Assembly (NCBI RefSeq): GCF_030068605.1
Contig: NZ_JASJOU010000002.1
Coordinates: forward strand, 124,001-188,000
Direction: 5' to 3'
DNA: 64,000 nt
Source of the DNA: Xanthocytophaga agilis
GTDB lineage: Bacteria; Bacteroidota; Bacteroidia; Cytophagales; 172606-1
A program made the translations under genes and the position numbers. Below, one piece after another: positions 19,627 to 28,657 of this stretch. The notes under the pieces were generated by a model that saw only the letters and a program-made list of their open reading frames with translations, ran no database searches and had not been told where the DNA came from. Each line of letters opens with the position of its first letter. The first letter of the stretch is position 1.

Positions 19627-19710
19627 GCCGAAGTGGCGGAATTGGTAGACGCACACGTTTCAGGGGCGTGCGAGGGTAACCTTGTACGAGTTCGACTCTC
19701 GTCTTCGGCA
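19627..19710 (+). tRNA. tRNA-Leu(CAG), prophage attachment gene
   Basis: The acceptor arms GCCGAAG (19627-19633) and CTTCGGC (19703-19709) pair fully. The D arm is GCG...CGC with GGTAGA, the anticodon stem CACGT/GCGTG carries loop TTCAGGG with anticodon CAG, the variable arm is long as in class II tRNAs, and the T arm is ACGAG-TTCGACT-CTCGT. CCA is not encoded. The phage integrase begins 145 bases downstream, so the 3' half of this gene is the probable attachment core; the matching right copy is not in the window. Confidence 0.96.
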
Positions 19711-19720
19711 CAAAACCTTT

Positions 19721-19780
19721 CAGATTTTAAATCTGACGGCAATATTAAAGAAAAATCTGTAGCAGCTCCCGGGCTGCTAC
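19721..19780. promoter_or_regulatory. Two dyads between tRNA and integrase (attL arm or integrase leader)
   Basis: CAGATTTTAAATCTG (19721-19735) is a perfect odd dyad. Arms GTAGCAGC (19759-19766) and GCTGCTAC (19773-19780) form a GC-rich hairpin 75 bases before the integrase start. They could be recombination protein sites, a tRNA terminator or a leader hairpin; the sequence does not decide. Confidence 0.4.
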
Positions 19781-19854
19781 AACCATTTATAATCAATCCT
19801 GAAACTGCTCTTGATGGAGATAGTGAAAAAGTGGCCGCTCACTTAAAGCTATCA

Positions 19855-21057
19855 ATGTCAAGAGAAAAAAAACTTGTTTCAAAATTTTCCCCAGCTGTAT
19901 TAAAGAATAGATCTGGCGACCTGTCAAAGCGCTGGTACATTGAATACAAAGTGTGGGATGAAGCTTCTCAAAAGCTTATTCGCCAGCATGATTACCTTCC
20001 AAATGCCTTAAAAACAGAGAAAGAAAGACTGGAATATGGTAAAGCACGTGTAGCAACCATAAACAATCTTTTGGCACGTGGATTCTGCCTTAATGGTAAC
20101 CCCATTCCAAAGCCAGAAGATGAAAAACCTCAGTCTATCTACACGTTTTTATCCTTACAACAGGCTTTAGATTGGGCTTTAGACTTTAAGAAAGCAGAAC
20201 TGAGAATAGGCAGCCACGCCAGATATCGGAATGTGAGAGATTTATTTTATCAGTATGCTCCTCCTGAGCTAAAAGAGAAGCCTATCAATAAGGTGAATGA
20301 AAATGATATTCTGGGATTTTATCAATACATCACCTTAGAAACAGAATATCTGGCAAAAGATCATATCAAAACATTATTCAAAGGGTTATTCTCTCTTTTG
20401 GTTCGTGAAAGGATAATTGCAGAAAACCCATGTCCAAAAATTATAAAACAGAGACGTAGAACAGGGAAAAAGAATTTAAGTCGAAAAAATAAGGCTTTCA
20501 CAGAAGAACAATTCAAATCAATTCTTACCTACTTAAAAAAGAATGATAAGGAATTGTATCGGTTTGTGGTGTTTATGTTCTACACATTCGCCAGACCTAA
20601 ATTTGAACTTCGTTTGTTAAAGATTGGGGATATAGATTTGCGCCAGGAGAAGATTACGGTTGCTGCTGAACATAGCAAAAATAACTATGAAAGACGTGTA
20701 GATATCAGTCCTCATTTATTGAATGTTATTCAGGATATGGATTTACAGAAATATCCACAAAGCTATTACATCTTTGGCAGAGATGGCAAGCCAGGAAAAG
20801 AACCACGTGGTAAGGAAACCTATTACATGAAATTTAGAGCTGCTCTACATGCGTTAAAGTTAGATGAAGATCCGGATCTGACATTTTATTCTATCAAACA
20901 TACAGGAATTGTTATGCATTTTCTGGCAGGTGTTGACGTAGAAGCCTTAAAAGAACAAACTGGTCACAGAGATTGGGATAGTTTCTGGGTATATCTTAAA
21001 TCCTTAAATCTGATTACCAATGATCGTTTTAAAGCAAAATCTCCTAGAATAATCTAG
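19855..21057 (+). CDS. int: Tyrosine recombinase (phage integrase)
   Basis: 400 residues from ATG 19855. The open frame runs back through the tRNA, but that part is antibiological as protein, so the downstream ATG is chosen. An N-terminal arm domain and SAM-like core-binding domain (TFLSLQQALDWALDFKKAELR, ILGFYQYITLETEYLAKD) precede the catalytic domain. Catalytic residues are visible as Arg in YTFARPKFELRLLKIGD, His in FYSIKHTG, the His of EQTGHRDWDSFW and the nucleophile Tyr in VYLKSL. It inserts and excises the prophage at tRNA-Leu. It is the only rightward gene of the left arm and shares its stop bases with the convergent tape-measure gene. Confidence 0.95.
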   Translation: MSREKKLVSKFSPAVLKNRSGDLSKRWYIEYKVWDEASQKLIRQHDYLPNALKTEKERLEYGKARVATINNLLARGFCLNGNPIPKPEDEKPQSIYTFLSLQQALDWALDFKKAELRIGSHARYRNVRDLFYQYAPPELKEKPINKVNENDILGFYQYITLETEYLAKDHIKTLFKGLFSLLVRERIIAENPCPKIIKQRRRTGKKNLSRKNKAFTEEQFKSILTYLKKNDKELYRFVVFMFYTFARPKFELRLLKIGDIDLRQEKITVAAEHSKNNYERRVDISPHLLNVIQDMDLQKYPQSYYIFGRDGKPGKEPRGKETYYMKFRAALHALKLDEDPDLTFYSIKHTGIVMHFLAGVDVEALKEQTGHRDWDSFWVYLKSLNLITNDRFKAKSPRII

Positions 21058-21060
21058 GAG
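21041..21060. terminator. Dyad over the convergent integrase and tape-measure stops
   Basis: CTCCTAG (21041-21047) and CTAGGAG (21054-21060) are perfect arms around AATAAT. The right arm contains both stop codons, which overlap in CTAG. A bidirectional stop is inferred from position; T-runs are weak. Confidence 0.4.
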
Positions 21061-24000
21061 ATTGTACTATCTGATTCAATTTGATTCAATAAGGTTAATG
21101 CTTTTCTGGTTTCTACTATATTATTACTTACATATATTTCCCTTTGCCACTTCGAAACTTCCATCTGATAAGCCATTAACCTTTCTTTTATACTTGACAT
21201 TTCTGCCAGCATTTTTTCCTGTACCTGCATTTGTGAAGTGGCAGCCGAATTATCAGCCAAAGCAGTATTTAAAGAAACACCAGGATTTGTAAAGCTACCT
21301 GTTTCAAATCTTCTCGCCCTGGCTGCTTCCAGATATCCAATGATGTTAGCATATTTCGGACTTTTCAGCATCCAGTTAGGCGCAACCCATTCAGCACCTT
21401 TTTCCCCAATCACACCCAAAGATGTATTAGGTATATGCCCACCTTTTGCAAAAGTTCCCACATTATTAGCCCTTTGCCAAACACCATCCACTTCTACCAT
21501 GGGAATAGAATTCTGTTTATAGAGTTGTCCCATTACAAGAGAAGACATGGTATTACCACCATCTGCAAATTTTTGGGCTAATACATTACGTACAGCTAAA
21601 CCAGCTCTGACAGTTGCCAGTACTGCCTTTATGGTACCTACAACACCCAAAGATGCAATTGATCCAGGATGTGCCATATAGCCGGAAATCTCTGTTGCCA
21701 GATCAGTAATTATTTTCCCAACAGAAAATGCTTTAATTACACCTGCATTCTTCTTTCTGGCTTCTTCATCTTTACTCAATAATTGAATTCCGATATCTAA
21801 TGCATCTGAAGCAAACCCTAAACCTTGTTGTAAAGCAACTCTTTTCAGTTCTTCTGTCTTCTTAGCATTTTCTACTTTCTGCTTTCCATGTTCAACTTCA
21901 AGTGCCAGTAATTTATTCTGTGCAGCCTGGATCTGTGCAGCGGTTGCTGTATCAGACTGCTGAAGAAAAGCCAGCTCCCTTTCAGCTGCTGCTTTTTTTA
22001 TCTCATAAATAGCATCTTGCTTTTGCATCTCTGCATCAATTGCTTCCTGAAGTTTTCCTTCAATTCTCAACTGATCAGCTTCATCCTGTGCTTCCAGCCT
22101 GGCCAGTTCTTCTTCGTCTTGTGCTGCTAGTCTTTCATTTTCGGCTTCCAGTTGTTTTTGTCTTTGTTCTTCCTGATAAGCTGCCTTGTCTTCATCGAAT
22201 TTTCGCTGAAGAATATCTTTTTCCGCATTGTATTTATTTATCAGATCAATCTTTTGTTGTTCTGTTATCGCCTCATTTTTTAAAACAGCTTCTTTGTTTC
22301 TCTCAATTTCAGCCATTTGTTTATTATGAGAAGTAATCATCTTCAAAAGCCTGGCATCCGTTCCTTTTTCTGAAATAGCTTCACGCAAAGCTTCTAAATC
22401 CTGATCTGCTTTTAATGATTTTTGATCATAATCATCACGAAGCTTCTGCATTTTTTTCTGATGATCTTCTTCATCTTTTTGTTTCTTTTCTGCATTCTTT
22501 TTGGCTTGTTCCTGTTTTTTAGCTTCTTTTTCGGCAGCTTTCTTATCAGCTTCTGCTTCAGAGTCCAGTGTATTTAAAGTTGTAGTTTGTATAGCGGTAG
22601 TATTATTTTGATTGGTATTGTTATTTGTATTCTTTTTGTCGGTTTCTACAGAAGTCTTAACTTTTATTTCCTTACCTGCCATTTCAGATAGTTTACTAAT
22701 CCAACTGATTACCTGTTTTATACCCTCCCATAAGGCTTTTACAGGAACTAACATTGAATCTATTGCACCTCTGAATAAAGATGAACTTTGATAGGCATAA
22801 TTGAAACCACCCACTAATGCAGTAATAACTGACAATACAGCCTTTAAAGGAATAAGGCTTATATTTAATATGATCTTTATGGCCTCAAATACTCCAGCCA
22901 GGAAAGAACCCTTATCAGCTGTTATACCTAAGCTTCTGGCTAATTCGCCCAGTACATTAAAGAAATCTGTAAAGTAAGGTTCTAATGTTGAAAATACATC
23001 TTCCAATACTCCAAACAGACCTATAAGCAACTCCTGAACTAAACTGATTGCAGGTGCTATACCCTGACCAAACTGCAATTGTAATTTCTCCCAAGCTTTT
23101 GCTCTTTTCTCTGCTATAGCTGCATCGGTATTATTCTTTACATTGAATTCATTTGTAAGGCTAGTACCTTCCTGCATTGCTTTATTAGCCAGTTGTTGTT
23201 TTTCTCTAACCTTATCAGTTTGGTTAGATAACAAGCTCATTACTTTGGTAGCTTCCTGAGAATTGATACCCAGTGCAGCAAGACGTTTGGCCAGTTGATC
23301 AGCCGGCACTCCTTTAAAGCTTTCAGCTAGTTTAAGGACAACCTCATTAGGATCTGTATTGATCATTTCCTTAAACTTCTCATTTGTCATACCCAGATGT
23401 TGAGCAAATGTATCTGTAGACTTTGAGGCAGTTAAAAGAATGTTTGTTAAACCACCAGCTGAAATTTCAGCACTTAATCCTAATTCCTGAAAGGCAGCAC
23501 CTAAACCCATTGTCTGGCTGATCTCAGGTGCAAGATTACCAAGCTGGCCAATACGTGCTGTGAAGTCTGCTACTACAGGAGCTGTAGCTGATCCGGTTGC
23601 ACCTAGTTCATTTAAAGCTGATCCAATCTGATTGATGGCATCACCTGCATTCAGATCTTTAGTTTGCTTAAACAAAGATGCAAGTGTTCCCATTTTGCCA
23701 GCAACTTCTTCAGCACCACCACTGAATTCATCACCCAAAGCAACTACAGCCTTATCTGTACTTTCTATAAAGCCATCCATCTGATTAGTAGCAATTCCTA
23801 TCTGACCACCCACTTTGGCAATTTCCAATAGGTCCAACTGGGAAGTACGAGTGTCCAGATCTCCAATGCGATCATTCAATGCCTGGACTTCATCAGCTGT
23901 CATTCCTGTAGATTTCCGGATATCAGCAAAAGAATCTGAATAGGTTTTGGCTAATTCATAAGCTTTTCTACCAAAGTCAATAAGCTGGCCAGCCAGTTCA

Positions 24001-24296
24001 ACAATACCTGTAACAGCAAAAGCGCCACCCAAAGCTGTTTTAACCAGATTGGAAGCGCCACCCAGATCAAAGAAACCTTTCTTAACTCCATTGACTTCAT
24101 CCTTCAGGCTTGTTAATCTTCCCTTTACTTCATCAAATTCTTTTGATTTTTTGATGAATTCATCAGTTCCTGGTGTTAGGTTTCTAAGTTGTGACCATAG
24201 GGCTTTAGTACCTTGTTCAAGTTGTTTAATCGTTGCACCTGCCTGCTGGGCATCAGCCACAATTTTAATTTTACGTTCTTCAGAAGTAGTTGCCAT
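21054..24296 (-). CDS. Phage tail tape-measure protein
   Basis: 1080 residues. The N-terminal half resembles TP901-type tape measures (IKQLEQGTKALWSQLRNL, ALGGAFAVTGIVELAGQL, DSFADIRKSTGMTADEVQAL, QLGNLAPEISQTMGLGAAF). Hydrophobic segments lie around residues 420-500, and a long charged coiled coil follows (EAEADKKAAEKEAKKQEQAKK to about 820). The protein sets tail length and enters the host envelope during infection. Its ATG overlaps the stop of the preceding gene by one base (TAATG). It is the last gene of the leftward late region, an unusual place after the lysis genes. Confidence 0.9.
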   Translation of the reverse strand: MATTSEERKIKIVADAQQAGATIKQLEQGTKALWSQLRNLTPGTDEFIKKSKEFDEVKGRLTSLKDEVNGVKKGFFDLGGASNLVKTALGGAFAVTGIVELAGQLIDFGRKAYELAKTYSDSFADIRKSTGMTADEVQALNDRIGDLDTRTSQLDLLEIAKVGGQIGIATNQMDGFIESTDKAVVALGDEFSGGAEEVAGKMGTLASLFKQTKDLNAGDAINQIGSALNELGATGSATAPVVADFTARIGQLGNLAPEISQTMGLGAAFQELGLSAEISAGGLTNILLTASKSTDTFAQHLGMTNEKFKEMINTDPNEVVLKLAESFKGVPADQLAKRLAALGINSQEATKVMSLLSNQTDKVREKQQLANKAMQEGTSLTNEFNVKNNTDAAIAEKRAKAWEKLQLQFGQGIAPAISLVQELLIGLFGVLEDVFSTLEPYFTDFFNVLGELARSLGITADKGSFLAGVFEAIKIILNISLIPLKAVLSVITALVGGFNYAYQSSSLFRGAIDSMLVPVKALWEGIKQVISWISKLSEMAGKEIKVKTSVETDKKNTNNNTNQNNTTAIQTTTLNTLDSEAEADKKAAEKEAKKQEQAKKNAEKKQKDEEDHQKKMQKLRDDYDQKSLKADQDLEALREAISEKGTDARLLKMITSHNKQMAEIERNKEAVLKNEAITEQQKIDLINKYNAEKDILQRKFDEDKAAYQEEQRQKQLEAENERLAAQDEEELARLEAQDEADQLRIEGKLQEAIDAEMQKQDAIYEIKKAAAERELAFLQQSDTATAAQIQAAQNKLLALEVEHGKQKVENAKKTEELKRVALQQGLGFASDALDIGIQLLSKDEEARKKNAGVIKAFSVGKIITDLATEISGYMAHPGSIASLGVVGTIKAVLATVRAGLAVRNVLAQKFADGGNTMSSLVMGQLYKQNSIPMVEVDGVWQRANNVGTFAKGGHIPNTSLGVIGEKGAEWVAPNWMLKSPKYANIIGYLEAARARRFETGSFTNPGVSLNTALADNSAATSQMQVQEKMLAEMSSIKERLMAYQMEVSKWQREIYVSNNIVETRKALTLLNQIESDSTIS

Positions 24297-24706
24297 TAGA
24301 CGGTTTCAGGAATATTGTCAGAGATTGTTTTAATAGCACGGTCACCATATTTTTTAGCAAATATTTCCATCAGACGGAATGTTTCGCGTGTAAGTACTTT
24401 GCCAGTCCATTTTTTGGGCTTTCTGGCGTTTCCACGCATTCGACCTACTAACCGGCGTTCTGTAGCATTTTCGCGTACGCCTTCAATGCCAGTGCCTTTT
24501 CCTACACCCATATCTACAAACATCCCATAAAGCAGATAGGCAAATTCTATTTTGTGCAGATCTCCACCGGCAGCTGTAGAAACATGGTTGTGAAAACTTT
24601 GCATAAGCCTGAAGCTGCTACCAATGCGTTTGGTTTTCAGACTTTGTATCCATTCTTTGATAGTGATTTCAGCCCACGCCTGGCTGGTTTGTTCCATAGT
24701 TTCCAT
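24296..24706 (-). CDS. Putative tail-completion/neck protein
   Basis: 136 residues with the pattern FAYLLYGMFVDMGVGKGTG, arginine-rich middle (RRLVGRMRGNARKPKKW) and LMEIFAKKYGDRAIKTI. Similar small proteins recur near tape-measure or head-tail genes of Bacteroidota phages; I place it there by pattern and position, not by a named domain. It is coupled to the tape-measure gene by a one-base stop/start overlap and preceded by a late motif at 24739-24747. Confidence 0.6.
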   Translation of the reverse strand: METMEQTSQAWAEITIKEWIQSLKTKRIGSSFRLMQSFHNHVSTAAGGDLHKIEFAYLLYGMFVDMGVGKGTGIEGVRENATERRLVGRMRGNARKPKKWTGKVLTRETFRLMEIFAKKYGDRAIKTISDNIPETV

Positions 24707-24738
24707 GATACGAAAATCATGGATGGAATTCAGAGGGG

Positions 24739-24747
24739 AAAGGACAA
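24739..24747 (-). promoter_or_regulatory. Late motif copy 1 (TGTCCTTTC)
   Basis: Reads TGTCCTTTC on the minus strand, about 33 bases upstream of the start at 24706. It is one of seven intergenic copies in the late region, all in the same orientation. Confidence 0.5.
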
Positions 24748-24767: not shown

Positions 24768-26153
24768 CTAAATATTCTCAAAAAGATTAAAGCTAATTGT
24801 TCCGTAATCTCTCTCACTAGGATTATTTCCAAAGTATTCTCTGATTCGAAGTATTTCAGCTTCATTTGGCTGGATGTGTTCTCTATAAAAAGCAGGGGAA
24901 CACATCCAGCTTTCCACATATTTAAGTAGCAAGTCACTTATCTCTTTGAGAAGGGTATTTGTATCTAACTTATCCAGCTTTATGCAAAAATCTCTGATTG
25001 TAATACTGCTTTTATGATATCCAACGATAAAGTATGAATTTGCTCTATCAGATACCAAATTGCAAGTAGCTGTATGTTTCAATAAAAGGTTTTTTATGTC
25101 TTGAGTAGGATTCTTTATTTTAAGATGATTGATGGTTTCTTCTATCAGTTGCGTCTCTGTGTAATGTTGATATAGATTGAATAAGTGATCAGCATCGTAA
25201 GTAACATCCAGAATAGTAGGAATAAAATGAATAAAATAAGAACAAAAGGGTATCTTAGGAAACGTATAAACCTTAAATTCAAAATCTTTTAATGTTCGAT
25301 CTTTTACATGATTATCTAATAATACCTTATAGGTGTTTAGCATACATAAAGCACGAACTTCCCCGGCCATTTTAGCCTTTTTTCCTTCATAACCTTCTTG
25401 AAAAGTGAGATTTTGTTGTAGAGTAGGCTCTTGTAAATAATTTTGATAAGTGTCTAATACTATTTCTTTCAATCTTAGCTGATAACAGAATGTTCGATAA
25501 GTTTGTAAAATCAAGTGACGATACTCATGAGGATTAAATAAATTTGTTCCTTCAATCTCTCTAAAGAGAGGAGTGTCATGATCATAACAATAACCATGAA
25601 ATGTCAATTGCTTTGCAATACCTTTCTTGTAAAATTTTAACCTCCTACCATTATTACTAAAAAAATCGGGCATAGTAGTCCAAACTTGCCTATCAGGAGC
25701 AAACATTTTTAGTAAAAGAGACTCTGCTATTATATGACAGCCTTGGTTAGTCAAATTTAAGCATCCTTCATACATACAGATTCGTGGTTTTTCAAGTGAA
25801 GCTTTAAGGATATTCTGCTGAACTTTTCTGATTTTTAGAAATTCCAAGTGCATTTCAATTAGTTTGCCTAATGCTTCTAAAATATTTGAAACAAGATCAT
25901 TTTGATCTGTAATCACGATAGCTCCATTCTCTACAGGAATATTCAGACCAAAGATTATGTTTGAATAAATAATATCCCTCATGCCTGTAACTGGCCAGCT
26001 ACCTTCAGGATATAAGCTCTCTAAGGTTGATAGTACACTTAACGCATATGACTTCTGCTTTGCAAGCACATCATATTTTTTAGCCTTTGCTGTTAGTTTT
26101 TCTAGTGTTTCTTTAATTTTATTATTATTCAAAAGAGTTAAATCTAATCCCAT
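24768..26153 (-). CDS. Prophage cargo protein with Cys/His zinc-site motif, function unknown
   Basis: 461 residues from ATG 26153; the frame extends 17 codons to a TTG, which touches the upstream terminator, so ATG is preferred. Helical N-terminal region (KIKETLEKLTAKAKKYDVLAK). Around residues 126-192 there is a Cys/His array: Cys126 and Cys131 in CMYEGC, His140 in GCHIIAESLLLK, Cys189 and His192 in GYCYDHDTPLF. This resembles a degenerate HNH-like or treble-clef zinc site followed by an E-F-rich segment. The C-terminal part is helical, without known domain. It is not an expected virion gene: it sits between endolysin and tail genes, behind a terminator and without the late motif. A moron with an accessory role (for example superinfection exclusion) is an inference. 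Confidence 0.7.
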   Translation of the reverse strand: MGLDLTLLNNNKIKETLEKLTAKAKKYDVLAKQKSYALSVLSTLESLYPEGSWPVTGMRDIIYSNIIFGLNIPVENGAIVITDQNDLVSNILEALGKLIEMHLEFLKIRKVQQNILKASLEKPRICMYEGCLNLTNQGCHIIAESLLLKMFAPDRQVWTTMPDFFSNNGRRLKFYKKGIAKQLTFHGYCYDHDTPLFREIEGTNLFNPHEYRHLILQTYRTFCYQLRLKEIVLDTYQNYLQEPTLQQNLTFQEGYEGKKAKMAGEVRALCMLNTYKVLLDNHVKDRTLKDFEFKVYTFPKIPFCSYFIHFIPTILDVTYDADHLFNLYQHYTETQLIEETINHLKIKNPTQDIKNLLLKHTATCNLVSDRANSYFIVGYHKSSITIRDFCIKLDKLDTNTLLKEISDLLLKYVESWMCSPAFYREHIQPNEAEILRIREYFGNNPSERDYGTISFNLFENI

Positions 26154-26202
26154 ATTTTTATAAAGTGTAGTTAGAAAATAGTATGTACTTTTAGAAATAT
26201 AC

Positions 26203-26237
26203 AAAAAAAGCCGTTAGGTAATACCCAACGGCTTTTT
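26203..26237 (-). terminator. Terminator after the endolysin gene
   Basis: Core arms GCCGTT (26210-26215) and AACGGC (26227-26232), extended by A/T pairs to about 11 bases. On the minus strand the stem ends in a run of seven T. It separates the holin/endolysin unit from the cargo gene, whose ATG lies 50 bases further on. Confidence 0.85.
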
Positions 26238-26264: not shown

Positions 26265-26786
26265 CTAAACTTTCAGCTCTCTAATAGCTGAAATGATCAT
26301 CAATGCTACATTCCTCAGAATCTTAGCATAATCCGGCGCTGTAGCATAGCCAGCTTTGGCAATAGCATCAATAAAAAGAAAAGGATCTTCTTTGACCTTC
26401 AAAGCTTTGGCGTACCTGCTATTTTTAAAAAAGAACTGAGCATGATCTGTAAAACATTCTTCAGGTGTTTTGTACTTTCTGAAGTAATCTTTTACGATGT
26501 ACTTATACAGCTTCTTTGTCTTATCCCATGTAACCGAAATGGTAACAGGGAATTTAGCTTTGCTGGTAGCCAGATATTCTACTGTTTGAAGTAGCTGCTC
26601 ATTCCCATTGACACCATCCGTATCCTTTACCCCGAAAAACATGTTTCCAGGTGCAGACTTTCCCCAGGCTGATTCTACAGCAGCTTGTGCCAGGATGGCC
26701 ACTGCTGAAATGCCTACCTTATCCTGTGTTTGCTTGGCAAAAGGATAATACTTTTTAACAAAGTTGGTTACTGTTGGATTAGTCAT
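26265..26786 (-). CDS. Phage endolysin, glucosaminidase (FlgJ-like)
   Basis: 173 residues forming one glucosaminidase domain, which cleaves peptidoglycan glycan strands. The catalytic glutamate is Glu38 in AAVESAWGKS; also present are GNMFFGVKDTDG, DYFRKYKTPEECFTDHAQFF and AGYATAPDYAKIL. There is no signal peptide, so release depends on a holin. Its ATG overlaps the stop of the small membrane gene upstream by eight bases, the usual holin/endolysin arrangement. Confidence 0.9.
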   Translation of the reverse strand: MTNPTVTNFVKKYYPFAKQTQDKVGISAVAILAQAAVESAWGKSAPGNMFFGVKDTDGVNGNEQLLQTVEYLATSKAKFPVTISVTWDKTKKLYKYIVKDYFRKYKTPEECFTDHAQFFFKNSRYAKALKVKEDPFLFIDAIAKAGYATAPDYAKILRNVALMIISAIRELKV

Positions 26787-27045
26787 TTTTCTTCTTAGAA
26801 AGAGATTTAATAACAGCCTTTATAAGAATAACTAGCAGAATAGCCGCACCGGCTCCTGATATCCCAACGAGTATTTTACTGGCAGTACTCACATCTGACA
26901 TACTCCCGGGCGCAACAGTAAAAAATCTTTCAAACCAGTTCCAAAGGCCTTTGGCTCCCTGAGCACCAATTACACCTTCGATAACAAAAGCCAGAATCAT
27001 AGATCCCAGGCTAGCAATGAATAAAAGATAGACAGCGTTTTTCAT
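26779..27045 (-). CDS. Putative holin
   Basis: 88 residues from ATG 27045 (the longer frame needs a TTG). Two membrane helices: YLLFIASLGSMILAFVIEGVI near residues 6-26 and ILVGISGAGAAILLVILIKAVI near 58-80, with a basic tail SLSKKKND. Size, two helices, charged C-terminus and overlap with the endolysin are the class II holin pattern; holins share little sequence, so the call rests on context. Confidence 0.65.
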   Translation of the reverse strand: MKNAVYLLFIASLGSMILAFVIEGVIGAQGAKGLWNWFERFFTVAPGSMSDVSTASKILVGISGAGAAILLVILIKAVIKSLSKKKND

Positions 27046-27085
27046 ACGTTTTTTTCTGCTAAAATCAGGCAATTGCCAGTATGCA

Positions 27086-27094
27086 GAAAGGACA
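27086..27094 (-). promoter_or_regulatory. Late motif copy 2 (TGTCCTTTC)
   Basis: About 40 bases upstream of the holin ATG. The perfect palindrome GGCAATTGCC (27068-27077) follows eight bases downstream, a pairing also seen at copy 5. Confidence 0.5.
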
Positions 27095-27099
27095 CTACC

Positions 27100-28638
27100 T
27101 TATGTCTTGGTTCTAAGAAGGGTAACTTTAGCCGGCTTAATTCCGGATTTCTGACTTACTGTCACTGTGAGATCCTGAAGGAAATACAGGTTTTGATCCA
27201 GATAGATTTTCTTGCGGGGATCCAGTGAAAGAATATCTGCCAGATTCAGATTTACATTACGGTCTATGGTTTTGGCATTAGCCCGAAACTCTATATAGGG
27301 TTTCCACCACTTTTCATACAAGCCTTTTGCACCTGTCCAACGCAAAGAATAATTTCCGATCGTATTTCCTGCATGATCAATTGTATCATAAGTAGCAAAT
27401 GGGTAATTGTTCCCAGATCCGTCTGGCCTCATACCTCGATACCACATCAGATGTAGTCCAGAAGCATTATTTCCTATCTCAAATTCAGGAGAGCTACCTT
27501 TTTGCCGGATGTGTGGAGTGGTCCACTGTCTTGCCGTGTTCAGCAAATCAGCATGTTTATATACTTCCAAAGGGGAAAAATCTGTAGTAATAGGTTCTTC
27601 TCCTTCTCCAATGACAAACTTATTCCAGTCATCTTTGATGTTTTTGGTTAGTTCATCAGAGCTATCCGGATTCATTTGCAATGTATAGCCTTTGCCTTCA
27701 ACAGGTGTTAGATCCCAGTCAGCATCTGCCTTACTGGTCCAGTCTACATAGTCAGATTGCTTTAAGATATCGGGAATGTTTACCAATTCTACCTGTTTGG
27801 CGACTGTATCAAATACATAACCCAAAGGAAATATCTTTTGTAGGTTGATCAGGAATGTACCAAACTTGGTATCAGGCACATGATTCTTTAATGTGATCTG
27901 AGGTAAGTACTGATTGTAATTACTCCCAATCCTATCTAATGCATAGTTGTTATAAAGGATCAGTTGCTGAATTTCTTCATTCTGTATCCAGCTGCCTGTC
28001 ATTCTATAGCCTATTGCCTGGAAAGCCATTTCCAGTACATACAGCAAATAGAATTGCGGTACCATAGCATGTTTGCTGGTATAGGCATTGGTAGGGAATG
28101 CACCATTGACAAAATAATTCAGATACCCACCAAACTGGCTATTCTTATCCTGATAGAAGTCTTCATTCAGGATTGGAAAGGCTGTATAAGGTGCTAAACT
28201 ATTCTGATAGGGTTTGTAAACAGGTGTGTTAATAGCATTCAGAAATGCACTGGGAACAGAAGTAAAGGAGAATTCCTGTTTTAAAAGATCACGAAGGGAG
28301 CTATTTTTTACTTTGGTCTGTACATCTCCAGCATCAGACTGAAAGTTTAACTGAAACTTTTTAGAGTTAGCACCACGAACTACAATTTTACCCACCTTGT
28401 ACACCAGTCCACCCAGCCAACAGATACTATCCACTTGGTTGCCTACCAGATTTTCAGATGCAACTAAGTTAGGAAAGCCTAAAAGCCGGCGTGTCTTTGG
28501 GGTGTTTGTGACGGTAAAAGGATAGGTAAGCATTCCTGGAATGCTATCATCAGAAAACATTGGGTTTGCTGACTTGATGGTAAAAGAGCTGCTAGGCTCA
28601 ATATCCAAAAATTCGTCTAGAATTTGAAAGGCTATCAT
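27100..28638 (-). CDS. Putative tail hub/distal tail protein
   Basis: 512 residues from ATG 28638 (a TTG two codons earlier is the only longer start). It contains LLGFPNLVASENLVGNQ, LINLQKIFPLGYVFDTVAKQVELVNIPDIL and a C-terminal beta-rich part (VNLNLADILSLDPRKKIYLD, LTVTVSQKSGIKPAKVTLLR). The FPLGYVFD plus VELVNIPDIL pattern is common in Bacteroidota phage tail-hub-like genes; a baseplate/Tal role is inferred from this and from its place between SprB-type tail gene and lysis genes. A 12-base hairpin covers its start codon. Confidence 0.55.
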   Translation of the reverse strand: MIAFQILDEFLDIEPSSSFTIKSANPMFSDDSIPGMLTYPFTVTNTPKTRRLLGFPNLVASENLVGNQVDSICWLGGLVYKVGKIVVRGANSKKFQLNFQSDAGDVQTKVKNSSLRDLLKQEFSFTSVPSAFLNAINTPVYKPYQNSLAPYTAFPILNEDFYQDKNSQFGGYLNYFVNGAFPTNAYTSKHAMVPQFYLLYVLEMAFQAIGYRMTGSWIQNEEIQQLILYNNYALDRIGSNYNQYLPQITLKNHVPDTKFGTFLINLQKIFPLGYVFDTVAKQVELVNIPDILKQSDYVDWTSKADADWDLTPVEGKGYTLQMNPDSSDELTKNIKDDWNKFVIGEGEEPITTDFSPLEVYKHADLLNTARQWTTPHIRQKGSSPEFEIGNNASGLHLMWYRGMRPDGSGNNYPFATYDTIDHAGNTIGNYSLRWTGAKGLYEKWWKPYIEFRANAKTIDRNVNLNLADILSLDPRKKIYLDQNLYFLQDLTVTVSQKSGIKPAKVTLLRTKT

Positions 28639-28657
28639 ACCCAAATATGATAGCCTT
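28628..28657 (-). promoter_or_regulatory. Hairpin enclosing the start codon of the tail-hub gene
   Basis: Perfect 12-base arms AAGGCTATCATA (28628-28639) and TATGATAGCCTT (28646-28657) with a six-base loop. The start ATG (28636-28638) lies inside the stem and no T-run follows, so translational control is more likely than termination. Confidence 0.55.

Follow-up and report, generated by a model that had tools for sequence, protein, structure and literature searches.

A cargo gene next to the endolysin gene of a Xanthocytophaga agilis prophage encodes a divergent member of a large zinc-site protein family with a putative role in anti-phage defence

Among the closest described counterparts of the gene analyzed here are the single-gene defence determinants carried by prophages, such as the PD systems and the P2 genes old, tin and fun (PMC9519451). 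Hotspots of P2-like phages, namely the gpA-gpQ interval and a second locus holding fun, are described in PMC9519451 and PMC9122126; the word "ogr" does not occur in the main text of either paper. No paper on the zinc-site protein family presented below was found in the open-access literature, and no described family was found behind the annotation names "SEC-C domain-containing protein" and "YecA family protein". PMC9229204 lists a SEC-C motif protein from a phage; at 362 bp it is too short for the zinc-site family. In PMC3339403 a gene of the YecA family appears just as a name.

The gene is located within a prophage in the window, i.e. the whole 64,000-nucleotide stretch of X. agilis DNA that was analyzed. 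Its possible reading frames and the adjacent terminator are as follows:

24768–26153, minus strand: gene encoding the 461-aa cargo protein, with an ATG start at 26153 and the zinc-site core at approximately residues 112–252
24768–26204, minus strand: longer, TTG-started form (478 aa), the frame as given in the original prediction
26205–26237, minus strand: intrinsic terminator, made up of a 15-pair stem with a T-run behind it, that closes the endolysin unit, upstream of the cargo gene

An ORF of 461 residues is indeed present. The original prediction gave no strand for it; it is encoded by the minus strand, and the plus-strand reading of 24768–26204 contains stops throughout. Since the TTG codon abuts the terminator, the 461-aa form was preferred over the 478-aa form, and the start of the gene is likely to be ATG 26153 rather than TTG 26204. 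A single copy was found in the 9.77-Mb genome of the strain. The GC content of the gene (0.319) is the lowest of 18 minus-strand genes compared (21.05–39.95 kb), with values of 0.340–0.428 for the other 17.

The cargo protein gave no credible match in Pfam (E 0.001), NCBIfam, PHROGs, the PADLOC models or the PDB sequences. Matches to RasGEF_N (E 0.49), PbeC (E 0.038) and a BRISC subunit (E 0.58) were too weak and were taken as chance. Distant relatives were reached stepwise, through intermediate sequences and profiles. The first of them were provided by a match in genome G005 (E 5.6e-12 for residues 102–304 and 9.6e-7 for residues 365–459) and by the G110/G180 search (E 7.7e-7), followed by profiles. 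In alignment, these three relatives are 20–24% identical, and the full zinc site is invariant. The distribution within the class is patchy: a single-sequence search identified 3 of 395 genomes and a profile search 5 of 395 (the strain's own genome included in both counts). Direct searches with the cargo protein in viral contigs, phages and plasmids revealed no relative, nor did a search of the viral contigs with an early alignment (A1). With one of the three relatives (L005) as the query, 15 plasmids were matched, 11 of them with the annotation "SEC-C domain-containing protein" and 4 with that of a hypothetical protein, together with two unannotated Listeria phage records.

Genomes were also scanned with a DNA pattern for the motif A-x-T-F-x-G-[FY]-C-x2-H-D, and viral contigs with a related pattern. 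This analysis revealed at least 117 genome loci, and 116 of the 117 among the matches listed were assigned to the family by HMM; the corresponding result for the viral scan was 53 of 59 contigs. The HMM had been built before the scan from an alignment (A2) that contains the cargo protein. Judging from the record titles (80 among the matches listed), the loci are spread over more than 10 phyla. In E. coli, a match was present in 92 of 5426 genomes, at 95 places, all of them chromosomal.

The 128 full-length relatives were reduced to 117 non-redundant sequences, and 114 of these were aligned with the cargo protein (alignment A4, 115 rows), three relatives that touch a record edge being excluded. 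H140, R220 and a Glu or Asp at position 201, none of which was part of the search pattern, are present in all 115 rows. F197 is present in 114 of 115 rows, and C126 and C131 in 112 of 112 and 110 of 111 rows with a letter at the respective position. F185, G187, C189, H192 and D193 are also complete in the 115 rows, but they belonged to the search pattern. In a pattern-free alignment of 8 sequences, two Cys, His, Cys, His, Asp and Arg (R220) are invariant. Judged by sequence homology over the core and the C-terminal region, and by these conserved residues, the cargo protein is a member of a large unnamed SEC-C/zinc-site family. The predicted numbering of C126, C131, H140, C189 and H192 proved exact for the 461-aa form, and these residues are conserved in distant relatives found without the motif search. 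Their conservation in the family argues that the zinc site is real, and it would be expected to bind metal.

An N-terminal SEC-C motif is present in approximately half of the family (50 of 115 members by Pfam PF02810, 57 of 115 by regular expression), and it is the sole Pfam family recognized in the relatives. PADLOC matches of the relatives themselves (E1-E2, E2 and PDC-S12; 9 of 10 relatives scanned) were dropped as stretches at the SEC-C end (residues 2–71). One further stretch, a weak REase_II match (L028, residues 163–209, E = 0.0064; ten relatives scanned), lies outside this end. The SEC-C motif is absent from the cargo protein, which matches no Pfam family at E 0.001. The first conserved Cys is preceded by 125, mostly helical, residues, compared to a median of 48 in the aligned relatives, and the identity of the cargo protein to these 114 sequences is 13–22%. 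Since it is divergent and lacks the SEC-C motif, its function may have shifted. The relatives, mostly of 300–400 aa and usually encoded by single genes, are located on prophages, satellites, plasmids and chromosomes.

The array of Cys and His residues was originally thought to resemble a degenerate HNH or treble-clef site. A degenerate or active nuclease of the HNH type (beta-beta-alpha-metal), either homing-like or restricting foreign DNA, is one alternative explanation of the gene; it concerns the fold and is compatible with a defence role. The order of the residues is in agreement with this proposal: the Cys pair is followed at a distance of 9 residues by a His, and then by a C-x2-H that opens a helix and precedes the invariant Asp, which resembles the anatomy of HNH domains. 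However, an hhalign comparison (run without a positive control) of the core family with 16 HNH domains from loci retrieved by means of PF01844 and PF14279 gave a score of 10.8, i.e. inside the range of 20 column shuffles (6.7–14.9). No Pfam HNH match at E 0.001 was obtained for the 115 family members, and the catalytic Asn of HNH was not recognized. Predicted models of the whole protein (pLDDT 77.9, pTM 0.75) and of the core, residues 112–252 (pLDDT 86.1, pTM 0.71), gave no credible match in Foldseek (best E 0.8 for the whole protein and 0.86 for the core in PDB, 0.25 for the core in the viral library) or VIA-align (best Z 5.1 and 4.4); the absence of a fold match does not imply a new fold. 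The structure prediction and remote-homology search proposed as a check for a nuclease fold thus yielded no credible match from Foldseek, VIA or hhalign. The proposed resemblance held for the order of the residues but not for profile similarity. HNH membership was therefore set aside as unsupported, as is nuclease identity, and an HNH-type enzyme seems unlikely, although it deserves some weight.

The company of the relatives was examined in 18 distinct annotated or ORF-called contexts (flanks of 6–12 kb), which were chosen for diversity and not blindly; five short G-genome loci and a repeat of the Klebsiella lineage are outside this count. A named anti-phage system was identified in 7 of the 18 contexts, a toxin-antitoxin-type gene only in 5, and neither clearly in 6. 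The seven contexts with a named system are:

Enterococcus context: AbiH, by annotation
Aminobacter context: HamA with TIR and Fic, by annotation
Listeria phage record (L016): Gabija together with a CBASS cyclase and effector, by PADLOC
Salmonella element: PARIS AriA/AriB, by PADLOC
Klebsiella context: PifA, by PADLOC
Vibrio pelagius context: Gabija, by PADLOC, and Abi, by annotation
Staphylococcus xylosus context: GajB, by PADLOC

Gabija genes were thus detected by PADLOC near the family in three records. From its integrase, AlpA and DUF927 genes, the Salmonella PARIS element may be read as a P4-like satellite. The toxin-antitoxin genes found near relatives are Fst, VapBC, Hok and MqsRA. Three of the six contexts with neither kind of gene contain ABC-three-component and CoiA genes (one), Fic and HEPN genes (one) or a restriction endonuclease (one). 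In the unannotated Listeria record (L016, 3153–8841), Gabija-like genes, the family member and CBASS-like genes are arranged in a row, and for this reason the record may be an island or a prophage fragment rather than a phage genome.

Four E. coli regions were read. Two of them belong to P2-like prophages in which the relative is flanked by gene D and ogr (L200, 10501–13687; L202, 10492–13690), an interval that may be an additional accessory slot of such phages. The other two regions lie on an element with repL and mobQ.

For a comparison of neighbours in 20 genomes, 127 proteins adjoining the family gene were set against 120 of 140 proteins called on the same contigs at a distance of 22 kb or more. 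The control was trimmed to 6 proteins per locus, one protein per trimmed locus being dropped by distance or size; in one case locus of the 20 (L232), no single ORF was recovered for the family gene. At E <= 1e-10, 131 PADLOC families were matched near the family gene and 91 in the control, a comparison that is qualitative only, since the listing covers 25 families on each side and one protein may match several models (e.g. GajB and RTasHel). Defence-type matches occur in the control as well. Among the 25 of the 131 families listed are BrxL, PglZ, LmuA, LmuB, ThsB, the UG17 reverse transcriptase, RTasHel, AbiEi, AbiEii, GajB, SoFic and PDC-S04; the systems named by PADLOC near the family are BREX, Lamassu, Thoeris, DRT, AbiE and Gabija. 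The 25 of 91 listed for the control include a type IIG enzyme, DpdF, PD-T4-6, ShosA, RtcR and PDC-S67, and are mostly generic models. The "mad" models appear on both sides. Beside the window copy itself no known defence gene was identified.

Because the relatives keep company with anti-phage systems and are located in P2-like prophages and a P4-like satellite, a defence role by association is likely. We consider it probable, by a modest measure, that the cargo gene is a stand-alone anti-phage gene carried by the prophage. The suggestion of an accessory, anti-phage function is strengthened by relatives near PARIS, Gabija, CBASS, PifA, AbiH and HamA, and weakened by the 11 of 18 contexts without a named system.

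The gene could also serve mobile elements in a different manner, i.e. in counter-defence, protection of their own DNA, regulation or stable maintenance, in which case nearness to defence genes would arise because both occupy the same accessory slots. Relatives adjoining conjugation genes or a single-stranded DNA-binding protein gene, as well as those near the toxin-antitoxin genes named above, are in agreement with such a service. However, PARIS, Gabija, CBASS and PifA are complete and mutually unrelated systems, and the accessory sites of relatives in prophages and satellites suit defence better, which makes this explanation improbable, if still a serious one.

The neighbourhood of the cargo gene in the window contains the following features:

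21054–24296, minus strand: tape-measure protein (PHROG E = 7.8e-85)
24296–24706, minus strand: 136-aa tail-region gene, unmatched in PHROGs, that forms one border of the variable slot
24735–24746, minus strand: TGTCCTTTC element preceding the 136-aa gene, just downstream of the cargo gene
26265–26786, minus strand: endolysin, the upstream neighbour (PHROG E = 1.4e-38)
27083–27094, minus strand: TGTCCTTTC element preceding the 97-aa gene that itself precedes the endolysin gene
27100–28644, minus strand: 514-aa gene with no PHROG match; other border of the variable slot

An integrase gene is located at 19633–21057. The placement between endolysin and tail genes was confirmed, with the endolysin on one side of the cargo gene and the 136-aa gene and tape measure on the other. 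Tape-measure relatives were found in 15 of the 395 class genomes and 2 of the 8 family genomes (own genome counted in both). For a comparison of the slot, 12 regions were fetched and searched with 14 window proteins. Both border genes were present in 3 of these regions, and in none of the three was the cargo gene found. In one (G227) the border genes are 53 bp apart and the slot is empty; in another, from the same genus (G006), they are separated by a different ORF, of 203 aa; in the third, a second, truncated prophage relative in the same genome, the slot contains ORFs of 246 and 250 aa. In a further genome (G394) the 514-aa gene alone of the border pair was found, and the gene order differs. 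The slot of the window prophage holds the 97-aa gene, the endolysin gene and the cargo gene. Since it is empty or otherwise filled in related prophages, the cargo gene is regarded as an insertion in a variable slot. In the three related prophages with both border genes, the slot yielded no relatives of the endolysin or of the 97-aa gene (26265–27072), and the endolysin may thus itself belong to the variable insert.

The second prophage relative (G000:C2:189112-193520; L273, 3112–7520) lies 1.1 kb beyond the window end. Its tape measure is shortened and has 315 aa. Its relative of the 514-aa gene retains the C-terminal part, fused to a different N-terminus, peptidase-like by eye.

The strong terminator predicted ahead of the gene is present: its minus-strand stem lies between the endolysin and cargo genes, and the site (26237–26205) is the longest among 13 terminator-like sites in the 21–30 kb region (5.9 expected). 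The late motif said to be missing from the gene had not been spelled out; the element found in the present analysis is TGTCCTTTC. The window contains 6 copies of it, each of them on the minus strand and within 24.7–43.4 kb (24746, 27094, 28677, 35427, 40003 and 43408), compared to 0.74 expected on both strands under a first-order model, a count that is post hoc because the element was spotted by eye in upstream regions. Five copies were compared (43408 was left out), and these lie 22–58 bp ahead of ORF starts 24706, 27072, 28644, 35399 and 39945. A looser 12-base form with one mismatch gave 9 matches versus 3.8 expected, a number reached by 3 of 100 shuffles. From its sequence context, TGTCCTTTC is a candidate late promoter element of the phage. 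None of the six copies precedes the cargo gene, although the element is present before neighbouring genes, which agrees with the predicted lack of a late motif. The search for a promoter of the cargo gene itself gave nothing convincing: the best Bacteroidota-type match, with 2 mismatches, is a weak promoter-like sequence only.

A perfect palindrome, CCATGAT-N6-ATCATGG (24703–24722), overlaps the start of the 136-aa tail-region gene. It has no second exact copy in the window, and 3 others with 3 mismatches were found, as chance predicts.

The terminator, the missing TGTCCTTTC, the lowest GC content and a slot that related prophages leave empty or fill with other genes support well the view of the gene as moron-like, and its cargo status is strong. 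As in morons, the gene is absent at the same slot in related phages, and it has a terminator ahead and no late-type element. The same-strand position between endolysin and tail-region genes would also suit a virion or lysis-associated protein co-expressed with these neighbours. This explanation is very improbable in view of the terminator in front, the lack of TGTCCTTTC, the absence of the gene from related prophages retaining both border genes, the lack of a PHROG match, and the location of relatives on plasmids and chromids at sites remote from phage genes. Equally far-fetched is a housekeeping SEC-C/YecA-like metal-binding protein acquired by chance, as the annotation names of relatives might suggest, given the patchiness among class and E. 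coli genomes and the carriage on mobile elements.

The cargo gene is best explained as an accessory gene of a temperate phage, inserted among tail-region genes. In the lysogen it is probably transcribed separately, and its likeliest job would be to stop other phages from infecting the host. The zinc-clamped core, with H140, D193, E/D201 and R220, may be the part that acts or binds, possibly on nucleic acid. Sensing or recognition of the target may fall to the SEC-C motif in relatives and to the helical N-terminus in the present protein. A bolder proposal, which we put forward tentatively and with more doubt than confidence, is that the family represents a widespread single-gene anti-phage system of more than 10 phyla, unseen by Pfam and PADLOC save for SEC-C, in which the zinc core (Cys pair, H140, C-x2-HD, E/D201, R220) forms a new catalytic or sensing fold and which phages and satellites load into accessory slots, including the D-ogr interval. 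Should the family prove antiviral, names such as "SEC-C domain-containing protein" would have concealed a defence gene of many phyla that is carried by dairy, enteric and marine mobile elements, and the window copy would be the same cargo in prophages of this host lineage, at a tail-region slot that is empty or differently loaded in relatives.

Compared with HNH/treble-clef nucleases (PF01844, PF14279), the core shares the order Cys, Cys, His, C-x2-H and a predicted strand pair followed by a helix, but its profile similarity did not exceed that of the shuffles, no fold match was credible, and 49 residues separate H140 from C189. Proteins annotated as "SEC-C domain-containing protein" or "YecA family protein" have the same core motif (Cys pair, His, GFC-x2-HD, F and Arg) and are often encoded by mobile elements, whereas the cargo protein lacks SEC-C and has a longer stretch before the first conserved Cys. 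Unlike the defence cargo of P2 (old, tin, fun) and the PD systems, it has no credible match to any PADLOC model; like them, it is encoded by an accessory gene of a temperate phage, placed at a variable slot and expected to protect the lysogen.
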